From: Kyrpidia sp.
GTDB taxonomy: Bacteria; Bacillota; Bacilli; Kyrpidiales; Kyrpidiaceae
DNA length: 64,000 bases
Direction of reading: 5' to 3'
Assembly: GCA_029960885.1 (NCBI GenBank)
Contig: JASBVV010000002.1
Location: 1-64,000 of the forward strand
Shown here piece by piece: positions 3,375-20,527 of this stretch. The number at the start of each line of letters is the position of its first letter. Position 1 is the first letter of the stretch. Both the position numbers and the translations under genes were made by a program. The notes under the pieces were generated by a model that was given only the letters and a program-made list of their open reading frames with translations, was not told the DNA's origin and did no database searches.

Positions 3375-3443
3375 CTCTTTTGGCTATCCCACGCTAGTGT
3401 CGGCCGGTCCGCCGTCGAATATGCGACGGGAAGATGGATGTCT

Positions 3444-3472
3444 TTGAGTTTTGTACGGGAAATCCGTATAAT
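3444..3472 (+). promoter_or_regulatory. sigma-A type promoter for the PLP trans-sulfuration gene
   Basis: TTGAGT (3444-3449), 17-bp spacer, TATAAT (3467-3472). Confidence 0.7.
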
Positions 3473-3523
3473 CGGCTTATCATAGAATGAAATGGGCAGA
3501 CCCATCGGGGGGAGGACGGAGAG

Positions 3524-4672
3524 GTGAAAAAAGACACCCAATATGTTCATATCGGCACCAGAACGGATCCCGCCACAGGGGCGATCTGCCCGCCCATCTA
3601 TCCGGCAACCACATATCGCCATCCCGAATTTGGGAAAAGTACGGGATACGACTACACGCGCACCGGCAATCCCACCCGCGCCATCGCGGAGCAGGTGATG
3701 GCCGACCTGGAGGAAGGGGACCGGGCGTTTGTACTCTCGTCGGGCATGGCGGCTGTGGCGTTGGTTTTTTCACTGTTCGCGCCGGGGGACCGGATCGTTT
3801 TGTCCGATGATCTGTACGGTGGCACCTGGAGACTTCTGGAGCGCGTATTTTCACGGTTCGGTTTGCGGTCGGAATACGTCGACCTGACCGCGGAGGACTC
3901 GTGGGCCCCTCGTTTGGCCGGAGCTGCGGCGGTGTTTGTGGAAACGCCCACCAATCCGCTGCTGAAAGTGGTCGATCTGCCCCGTCTTTGCAGCAGGGCC
4001 AAGGAGCACGGCGCCCTGGTGATCGTGGACAACACGTTTATGACGCCGTATTGGCAGAAACCGCTGACCCTCGGTGCCGACATCGTGGTGCACAGTGCCA
4101 CCAAATATCTGGGGGGACACAATGATGTTTTGGCGGGAGTGGTGGTTTGCCGAGGGCCTGAATTGGCTGATGGCCTGACCTTGCTGCACCATTCGGTGGG
4201 AGCGGTGCTGGGTCCCCAGGAATGCTGGCTGCTGCTGCGAGGGATCAAAACGCTGCCCCTTCGCCTGGCCCGGCAACAGGAGAATGCTTATGCCGTCGCC
4301 CGTTGGCTCCAGGGGCACCCCGGGGTTTCCCAGGTCTATTACCCCGGCCTCGAAGGACATCCGGGGTATGAAGTGCACCGGCGCCAGGCCTCGGGGGCGG
4401 GGGGGATGATCTCGTTTCGGGTCCGCGACGTTCGCGATGTCAGAAGGCTGCTCATCGACGGACAGGTGGTTTTGTTCGCCGAAAGCCTGGGCGGTTTGGA
4501 GACACTGATCACCCATCCCGCCTCTCAGACCCATGCGGATGTCGACCCCGGACTGAGGCGGCGGATCGGCATTACCGACGATCTTTTGCGGTTGTCCGTG
4601 GGCGTGGAAGATGTCGAAGACATCATCGACGATCTGGAGAGACGCCTCACAAATCCGCCGGGTTCGCGATGA
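3524..4672 (+). CDS. Cystathionine gamma-synthase/beta-lyase family PLP enzyme
   Basis: PLP-lysine motif VVHSATKYLGGHNDVLAG plus family signatures (SSGMAAVALVFSLFAPGD, ETPTNPLLKVVDL). Confidence 0.88.
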   Translation: MKKDTQYVHIGTRTDPATGAICPPIYPATTYRHPEFGKSTGYDYTRTGNPTRAIAEQVMADLEEGDRAFVLSSGMAAVALVFSLFAPGDRIVLSDDLYGGTWRLLERVFSRFGLRSEYVDLTAEDSWAPRLAGAAAVFVETPTNPLLKVVDLPRLCSRAKEHGALVIVDNTFMTPYWQKPLTLGADIVVHSATKYLGGHNDVLAGVVVCRGPELADGLTLLHHSVGAVLGPQECWLLLRGIKTLPLRLARQQENAYAVARWLQGHPGVSQVYYPGLEGHPGYEVHRRQASGAGGMISFRVRDVRDVRRLLIDGQVVLFAESLGGLETLITHPASQTHADVDPGLRRRIGITDDLLRLSVGVEDVEDIIDDLERRLTNPPGSR

Positions 4673-14028: not shown

Positions 14029-14511
14029 GTGGTGTATTATTGTTACGGAAGCGCCCACTCTTCCATCGTTTGCGCCGCCATTCACCTGGGGCGGCTGAAG
14101 GAGGAAAGGCCCTCGGCCAGGGACATCATTCGCCTGGCGGACTTTGACGCCACGGACACGTGGTCCATCGGCACTCTCTTCTTCAAAGGCGTGGATGACC
14201 TGGGGTATCCGGTGTACACCCTGGGTCTGGGCCCTCGGCGGCACAGGGCGCTTCAATCCGTCGCGTCGCTTTTGACGGTCCCGGGGTTTGGGGGATCGCC
14301 CATCCTGTTCGCCGAGGCCCTGCCGCAAATCGGGTGGTTGGCCCGGCTCGGCGGAGCCATGTCCCGGCGGTACGGCCAGGTCTCATTCGGCCGATCGCTC
14401 AGCGCTCGGGCGATCGCAAGGCACTGTGCGGACTTGCGCAGGTTCGTCCGGACCGTTCGGGAAGCCGAACGGCGAGCGGCGATTGACGCGCCGACGCCGG
14501 TTCTGTCATAA
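14029..14511 (+). CDS. DUF3189 family protein
   Basis: VVYYCYGSAHSSIVCAAIHLG N-terminal signature; GTG start overlapping the region just after the upstream stop. Confidence 0.6.
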   Translation: MVYYCYGSAHSSIVCAAIHLGRLKEERPSARDIIRLADFDATDTWSIGTLFFKGVDDLGYPVYTLGLGPRRHRALQSVASLLTVPGFGGSPILFAEALPQIGWLARLGGAMSRRYGQVSFGRSLSARAIARHCADLRRFVRTVREAERRAAIDAPTPVLS

Positions 14512-17655: not shown

Positions 17656-18042
17656 ATGAGCCAGGTTCCAAAGGAATTAAAGTACAGTGAAGAGCACGAG
17701 TGGGTTCGGGTGGAAGGAAACCGCGCGGTGATCGGCATTACCGATTTCGCCCAGTCCGAGTTGGGAGACATCGTCTTCGTGGAATTGCCGTCCGCCGGGG
17801 CCGAAGTCAAGGCCGGGGAGACGTTCGGTACGGTGGAGTCGGTGAAAACGGTGTCCGACCTGTATGCGCCGGTCTCCGGAAAAGTGGTGGAAGTCAACGG
17901 TGACTTGGGGGATGCGCCGGAGAAGGTCAATGAAGATCCGTACGGCGCGGGGTGGATGATCGTCGTTGAGATGTCGGACTCCAAGGAGCTGGATCAGTTG
18001 ATGGATGCCAACGGATACAGCGCGCACGTCAGCGCTTCCTGA
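17656..18042 (+). CDS. gcvH: Glycine cleavage system H protein
   Basis: [35 protein letters not shown] with lipoyl-lysine region [18 protein letters not shown]. Confidence 0.95.
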
Positions 18043-18049
18043 CGGGGCG

Positions 18050-18883
18050 ATGGCGATGCCGGCTTGGCGGGTGTTACATACCGGGAAAGGTTCCCCGGCC
18101 TACAACATGGCGGTGGATGAGGCGGTGTTGATCGCCCATTCGGAAGGCCGGGTGCCGCCGACCCTGCGGCTGTACGCGTGGAATCCGCCGACCTTGTCCA
18201 TCGGGTATTTTCAGCGGGCGGAGAAAGAAGTGGATTTTCAGGCGCTACGGACCCGCGGTTACGGGTTCATCCGGCGGCCGACCGGGGGTCGGGCCGTGCT
18301 TCACGACCGCGAAGTGACGTACAGCGTGGTCGTGTCAGAGTCATACCCCGGGATGCCCGGATCCGTCACCGAATCCTACCGGGTGATCAGCGAAGGGTTG
18401 GTTCTCGGTCTCAGGAGGCTCGGATTCGATGTGCAGTTTTCCCGGCCGGACGATGAACAGAAGCGGAGGTTGTCGGCACCCAGTTCCGCCGCCTGTTTCG
18501 ACTCGCCGTCGTGGTACGAGGTCGTCGCCCGGGGCAAGAAATTGATCGGTAGCGCGCAGACCCGGCAGCGAGGCGTGATTTTGCAACATGGATCGATTCT
18601 TCTGGAGTTGGATGCCGGGGCGCTGTTTGCCGTCCTGCGGATTCCGAGCGATCGCGTGCGGGAGCGGTTGTACCGGACCTTCCGCGACCACGCCGTCTCG
18701 CTGAGCGACTTGGCGGGGAAACCCGTCTCCTCCGAACAGGTGGAGGCCGCCCTCGTCGAGGGATTCGCCGAGGCGCTCGGGGTCACCCTGATTCCCGGAG
18801 AATTAACCGAAGAGGAAAAACAGTACGTCGAACGGCTCGAACGGGGCAAATACGGCTCCGACCAGTGGAATTTTCGAAAATGA
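18050..18883 (+). CDS. lipM: Octanoyltransferase LipM
   Basis: AYNMAVDEAVL, GFIRRPTGGRAVLHDREVTYSVVVSE, ACFDSPSWYEVVARGKKLIGSAQTRQRGVILQHGSILLELD. Confidence 0.88.
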   Translation: MAMPAWRVLHTGKGSPAYNMAVDEAVLIAHSEGRVPPTLRLYAWNPPTLSIGYFQRAEKEVDFQALRTRGYGFIRRPTGGRAVLHDREVTYSVVVSESYPGMPGSVTESYRVISEGLVLGLRRLGFDVQFSRPDDEQKRRLSAPSSAACFDSPSWYEVVARGKKLIGSAQTRQRGVILQHGSILLELDAGALFAVLRIPSDRVRERLYRTFRDHAVSLSDLAGKPVSSEQVEAALVEGFAEALGVTLIPGELTEEEKQYVERLERGKYGSDQWNFRK

Positions 18884-18893
18884 TGCGGCCTCG

Positions 18894-18918
18894 GAACGGT
18901 TCCGAGCCGTTCTTTTTT
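18894..18918 (+). terminator. Rho-independent terminator after lipM
   Basis: GAACGG-tttccgag-CCGTTC followed by TTTTTT. Confidence 0.8.
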
Positions 18919-18927
18919 GTCCGGCGG

Positions 18928-18957
18928 TCATATTTCTCTCTCTCGGGCTCATAGATA
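18928..18957 (+). promoter_or_regulatory. Putative sigma-E type promoter upstream of the spoIVA locus
   Basis: TCATATTT (18928-18935), 14-bp spacer, CATAGATAT (18950-18957), similar to the B. subtilis sigma-E consensus. Confidence 0.5.
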
Positions 18958-19002
18958 TGTACCGTCCAAAGACCGTGCTATCGACGGGCAGCCTGAGGGA
19001 GG

Positions 19003-19229
19003 TGATGTCGAGTATCGTCGGCGACGGTGATTTTCACGCGCCTGGTTGGGAAATGAACTTTCGGTTCCGCCGCCGCGATCGTGCGTCCGCGGCGCTCTGG
19101 GGCAACCTGTCGGTGGCCCGGGACGGGTCTGCATCGTTCTTGATGTTTGGATGACAATCAATTCCATAAACTTTGATGAATGTCGGATGCCGTTCGAACC
19201 GGGCCGACCACGCCGAGGTATGTCTCCGC
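19003..19229 (-). pseudogene. spoIVA: Inverted N-terminal fragment of spoIVA (P-loop region), with indels
   Basis: Minus-strand reading gives, across frames, YLGVVGPVRT..TFIK / FMELIVI / PNIKNDADPSRATDRLPQSAA / AEPK..PNQA..KITVAD, the SpoIVA N-terminus. Confidence 0.8.
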
Positions 19230-19277
19230 TTCCCAACCAGGCCGTGGAAATCACCGTCGCCGACGGTCTCGACATCA
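19003..19277. repeat. Imperfect inverted repeat, arms 19003-19052 and 19230-19277
   Basis: Left arm (reverse complement) TTCCCAACCAGGCGCGTGAAAATCACCGTCGCCGACGATACTCGACATCA vs right arm TTCCCAACCAGGCCGTGGAAATCACCGTCGCCGACGGTCTCGACATCA. Confidence 0.85.
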
Positions 19278-20482
19278 ATGTGCGCCTCGTGGATTGTGTG
19301 GGATACGCCGTGGACGGAGCCCGGGGTTATGAGGATGAGAACGGCCCCCGCATGGTGAGCACGCCCTGGTTTGAAGAGCCGATTCCCTTTCAGGAAGCGG
19401 CGGAGATCGGCACCCGCAAAGTGATCGCCGACCATTCGACCATCGGTCTGGTGATCACCACCGACGGCAGTATCGCCGAGATCCCCCGGAGTGCCTACAT
19501 CGAAGCCGAGGAGCGGATCGTCGGGGAATTGAAGGAACTGGGGAAGCCTTTTGTGATGATCCTGAATTCGTCCCACCCCTATCACCCGGAGACCGGGGCG
19601 CTACGGGCGGCGCTCGCGGAAAAATACGACATTCCCGTGCTGCCCCTCTCCTGCGCCACCATGGGCCAGGAAGATATCCTTGGGGTTCTGCGGGAGGCGT
19701 TGTACGAATTCCCGGTCCATGAAGTGAATGTGAATCTGCCGAGCTGGGTGATGGTTCTCGACGCGGACCACTGGTTGCGGTCTCAGTTTGAACAGGCGGT
19801 GCGGGACAGTGTGCGGGATGTGCGGCGCCTCCGGGATATCGACCGCGTGGTCGACCAGTTCCATCAGTACGATTTTGTCACCCGGGCGGCCCTGGCCCAT
19901 ATGGATATGGGCCACGGAGTGGCGGACATCGATCTGGAGGCTCCGGATGAACTGTACGACCGTGTGCTGACGGAGATCGTCGGCACGGAGATCCGGGGGC
20001 GGGATCAACTTCTGAAACTCATGAAAGAACTGACCTGCGCCAAACGAGAGTACGACAAGGTGGCCGATGCGCTGAAGATGGTGAAAACCACCGGATACGG
20101 CATCGCTTCCCCCATCCTGGAAGAAATGACCTTGGATGAGCCCGAACTGATCCGTCAGGGTTCCCGGTTCGGAGTGCGGCTCAAAGCCACGGCGCCGTCC
20201 ATTCACATGATCCGGGTGGATGTGGAGTCGGAGTTTGCGCCTATCGTGGGGACGGAGAAACAGAGCGAAGAGTTGGTGCGGTATCTCATGCAGGATTTCG
20301 AAGAAGATCCTCTCAAAATTTGGGAATCGGACATATTCGGCAAGTCCCTGGCCGCCATTGTGCGCGAAGGGATCTCGGCCAAATTGGCCATGATGCCCGA
20401 GAATGCCCAGTATAAACTCCAGGAGACCCTGGAGCGGATCATTAACGAGGGCAGCGGGGGGTTGATCGCCATTATTTTGTAA
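19221..20482 (+). CDS. spoIVA: Stage IV sporulation protein A, 5'-truncated/rearranged (no Walker A in frame)
   Basis: From PNQAVEITVADGLDINVRLVDCVGYAVDGARGYEDENGPRM to ERIINEGSGGLIAIIL the frame matches SpoIVA; upstream residues of the listed ORF do not. Confidence 0.85.
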
Positions 20483-20527
20483 ACCGCCATGGTTCGACAG
20501 ACCGCCGGATGGGGTGCGCATATGCAC

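Follow-up and report, generated by a model that had tools for sequence, protein, structure and literature searches.

The inverted 5′ segment of spoIVA in a Kyrpidia draft genome is very probably an assembly artefact

The window analysed here is a stretch of 64,000 nt, positions 1-64000 of the 84-kb contig C15 in a draft genome of Kyrpidia sp. (2.04 Mb, 102 contigs, 86% complete). It carries spoIVA, whose 5′ part was read in an initial annotation as inverted between two repeats. BLASTN comparison of the window with locus L005 of G002, a complete genome of the same genus, divides the region into three blocks, listed here with the features that they contain.

17744-19002, block 1, collinear with L005 1-1268 (blastn)
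18005..18883 (+), lipoate-protein ligase family protein, the upstream neighbour; an intact ORF, syntenic with same-genus genomes
18949..19002 (+), near-identical to same-genus genomes, ending at the spoIVA Shine-Dalgarno sequence GGGAGG; left anchor of the join
19003..19229 (-), block 2, reverse complement of L005 1319-1549, spoIVA codons ~15-91 (blastn); the inverted, error-rich, putative filler, with 12 indel openings and 94-95% identity to Kyrpidia-type genomes, gaps ignored
19003..19052 (-), left arm of the inverted duplication; an error-bearing copy of 19230-19277
19230..19277 (+), right arm of the inverted duplication, all 48 bp identical to G002; right anchor of the join
19230..20482 (+), rest of spoIVA, codons ~76-492; gap-free, 95% amino acid identity to same-genus SpoIVA
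19230-20486, block 3, collinear with L005 1502-2758, 0 gaps (blastn)

The same three blocks are found against L006 of G001, the other complete genome of the genus, and against L007 of G003, a same-family relative (the Alicyclobacillaceae MAG Bu37, L034/L007), so the inversion, as assembled, is confirmed. Relative to L005, ~50 bp are lost, which take in the last part of the ribosome-binding-site region, the GTG start (L005 1276) and codons 1-14, and 48 bp are present twice in opposite orientations, forming the inverted arms. The overall length of the locus is almost unchanged, since the inverted piece measures 227 bp and the replaced one 233 bp. Aligned with each other, the arms (19003-19052 and 19230-19277) show 92% identity and 2 gaps (E 4e-11), in agreement with the imperfect inverted repeats of ~50 bp that had been described. 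The initial annotation was also right that codons are duplicated at the junctions and that others are missing at the 5′ end, but in genus numbering the duplicated codons are ~76-91 rather than ~78-93, and the missing ones 1-14/15 rather than 1-16. Within 973 kb of the organism's own sequence, roughly half of the genome (12 small contigs within that total read as N), the arms are the sole local inverted repeat of such kind, and therefore not a product of chance; no further inverted patches were found in those 973 kb.

Just upstream of the join, the spoIVA leader of ~45 nt (window 18957-19002) has the same sequence in this genome as in G001 and G002, while that of G003 differs except in the stretch adjoining the ribosome-binding site. 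The shared sequence is either a conserved leader or part of a cross-strain anchor.

In a profile search, the plus-strand spoIVA frame matches TIGR02836 from position 76 to 492 only. This partial match is still above the family cut-off (687.7 versus 459.9 bits), and the middle and C-terminal domains of SpoIVA (PF20438 and PF20439) are complete. Codons ~76-492 are intact and well conserved, as in other members of the family (TIGR02836; PF09547 / PF20438 / PF20439), whereas positions 1-75 are absent from the assembled frame, and with them the Walker A P-loop that a full-length TIGR02836 protein has in its first ~35 residues; its absence had been correctly remarked. The rest of the gene is 95% identical to same-genus genomes in amino acids versus ~84% in nucleotides, and judging from the sequence it looks to be under strong purifying selection. 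A search for a second intact spoIVA, as proposed in the initial annotation, returned none in this assembly (86% complete), where the assembled copy is the only one.

Intact spoIVA occurs at the same place in G001, G002 and G003, and its N-terminus is in one piece in 108 of 109 comparison loci, the remaining locus being a contig edge. A separate oddity is L011, where spoIVA is frameshifted near codon 105 (~2670; G037:C1 3783769-3784935 / 3784920-3785018); G037 is a complete genome from another family of the same class, and its frameshift is a sequencing error or a pseudogene. In Bacillus subtilis, the Walker A substitution K30E in SpoIVA lowers the yield of heat-resistant spores 10^8-fold (PMC7549369), so one would not expect sporulation to succeed in a cell that truly had the sequence as assembled.

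The inverted piece is as unusual in its errors as in its orientation. The initial annotation had noticed single-base indels there; they are real, and global alignment of the 227 bp to G001 and G002 corrects their number to 12 openings (16 bases), besides 11-13 substitutions. The downstream 1257 bp of spoIVA have 0 gaps, and G001 and G002 align with each other gap-free over the inverted stretch. Where the two copies overlap, in the 48 bp of the arms, the inverted copy differs at several positions from the forward copy, which matches G002. About 10% of mixed indels and substitutions is typical of raw single-molecule reads.

With gaps ignored, the inverted piece is 94-95% identical to G002 and G001. 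Identity between this genome and same-genus genomes averages 76.6% over 12,661 windows of 231 bp, with a 99.9th percentile of 92.4%. The windows above the latter level are a tRNA locus, a patch in glnA and two other conserved stretches, the glnA patch being the next closest to same-genus genomes after the tRNA locus. Five sites in the inverted piece distinguish G001 from G002; three of them carry the G001 base and one the G002 base, and the last is a gap.

An internal control is provided by a search for similar damage elsewhere. At ~77% identity, counting indels in nucleotide alignments proved too noisy, so changes of protein frame were scanned instead, aligning 258 G002 genes (78,392 codons) with the examined part of this genome. 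Of the six candidates, two are dense clusters of indels within conserved genes; among the remaining four, three resemble ORF-end differences in the alignments, and the last is L189. The glnA patch (C26, L147, ~3430-3570) has five frame-breaking indels in ~100 bp, leaving the gene over two frames. The patch in cysS (C4, L126, ~14160-14420) has many indels, an internal TGA stop and a split frame; cysS on C4 also has a later frame break at ~15250. Both patches fall within or next to short stretches that share 96-98% identity with G001/G002, at which G002 and G003 are only 80-90% alike, and both are normally oriented, unlike the spoIVA patch. Scanning all of C15, including the window, a second time gave no convincing frame break; breaks at 27.6-29.2 kb of the window lie opposite intact plus-strand genes and were dismissed as antisense ORFs.

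Each of the two genes is the sole copy in the assembly. The product of cysS, cysteinyl-tRNA synthetase, is essential, and a frameshifted sole copy would be lethal. The cysS patch therefore cannot be true sequence, and this assembly must contain erroneous, error-dense patches in conserved stretches. We regard the cysS patch as a probable assembly error and the glnA patch as probably another; the spoIVA patch belongs with them, and is misoriented besides.

We conclude that the flipped 5′ region of spoIVA is very probably an assembly artefact, presumably one of gap filling, rather than a rearranged gene. This reading of the sequence is drawn from the three-block geometry, the concentration of errors in a piece with a gap-free flank, the unusual closeness of that piece to G001/G002, and the patches in genes that cannot be broken, cysS and glnA, which are the strongest evidence. 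It is further favoured by the near-equal lengths of the piece and the sequence that it replaces, and by the selection that the remainder of spoIVA appears to be under. The warning in the initial annotation that the indels made an assembly chimera a serious option is thus upheld. Against the artefact, an inversion was seen only once in the roughly half of the genome that was examined, the other two patches being normally oriented, so inversion is not a recurrent error here; moreover, high similarity alone is also found at other conserved stretches that have no indels.

The proposed course of events is as follows. Two contigs would have met within the highly conserved 5′ end of spoIVA, their ends lying at conserved stretches that this organism would share base for base with a more K. 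tusciae-like strain. The gap of ~233 bp may then have been bridged with ~230 bp of uncorrected sequence of single-read quality that came from this region but was inserted backwards and displaced by ~50 bp. A displacement of that size would explain why ~50 bp, from the start to codon 14, are lost and why 48 bp occur twice in opposite orientations. The donor was probably a co-occurring strain, the more K. tusciae-like one, and the error spectrum suggests a long read as the source. The patch thereby resembles the unpolished, indel-rich patches of hybrid or gap-filled drafts and MAGs, which likewise have a local error of ~10% with many single-base indels and frame-clean flanks, fall in conserved stretches and affect essential genes too; it differs from them in being misoriented and shifted by ~50 bp.

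Contig C24 (L145) was considered as proof of a co-assembled second strain and rejected, since its identity to G001 is only 78% and this genome carries a diverged copy on C90. Its 4.4-kb stretch (G000:C24, 7-4461) is 95% identical to G002 and carries, by eye, pabA/pabB-like and MurT/GatD-like genes; it is horizontally shared, duplicated or mis-binned.

The geometry by itself would also suit a real mutation. In the four-point template-switch model (PMC7954356), replication would have left its template at point 1 (L005 1268), copied the other strand from point 2 (1549) as far as point 3 (1319) and gone back to the first strand at point 4 (1502). These are the limits of the blocks observed on L005, where an inverted block sits between two collinear ones and a single deletion accompanies a single inverted duplication. 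A switch that destroyed spoIVA and was followed by decay of the copied piece is nevertheless unlikely, contrary to one option in the initial annotation. Such decay would not leave the 227 bp with 12 indel openings and the neighbouring 1257 bp of the same gene free of them. Nor would the copy exceed, in its similarity to G001/G002, the 99.9th percentile of windows from its own genome; beyond ordinary mutation, a template-switch copy should not depart from the sequence of the organism itself, and this one does. Indels as dense in the sole cysS and glnA are not real decay either, and those patches are not inverted. A little less likely again is that the switch was very recent and inactivated spoIVA in a Kyrpidia-like population whose ability to sporulate is gone or disappearing. 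Fold-back chimeras, for their part, give inverted segments with nearby deletions and duplications, and one that arose in amplification or library preparation and was faithfully assembled would account for the spoIVA geometry in place of a gap-filling error. A single fold-back makes one junction, however, not two, and leaves unexplained both the error density of ~10% and the non-inverted patches in cysS and glnA, making this origin very improbable.

That recombination between the inverted arms might switch spoIVA on and off, another option raised at the outset, is suggested by the position of the arms on either side of the segment, yet we find it scarcely credible. Flipping the segment had been expected to bring the P-loop region back in front of the remaining gene, but flips at three intervals gave no Walker A motif (GKS/GKT) and no full N-terminus, and the start-codon region is absent in both orientations, as had been foreseen for the first codons. 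The arms duplicate coding sequence imperfectly, and comparison with relatives, suggested as a check, found them in none, the N-terminus being intact in all loci but the one at a contig edge. Nor is a recombinase at hand: the genome has no match to the resolvase-type (serine) domain PF00239, and the tyrosine recombinase domain PF00589 occurs on C45 and C74 only, with none on C15.

A precedent of a general sort for scaffolding and gap filling as the origin of the flipped segment may be seen in the coal-fire gas-vent study from which the relative Bu37 (G003, L034) comes. It combined Illumina and R9.4 Nanopore reads in a hybrid assembly, with scaffolding and gap filling by npScarf, and obtained three Kyrpidiaceae MAGs, of which K. 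tusciae strain Bu76 was the most abundant (PMC10215811). Gaps were filled there with Illumina consensus from the assembly graph (PMC10215811), so that step alone would not leave raw-read errors.

The value of the spoIVA case is as a warning. Short uncorrected patches in this draft, possibly of cross-strain origin, mimic inversions and pseudogenes, and read support is needed before such assemblies are used to argue that sporulation has been lost or that a DNA switch exists. Comparing the indel density of a suspect segment with that of its flanks, together with looking for equal damage in essential genes, offers a quick and general check.
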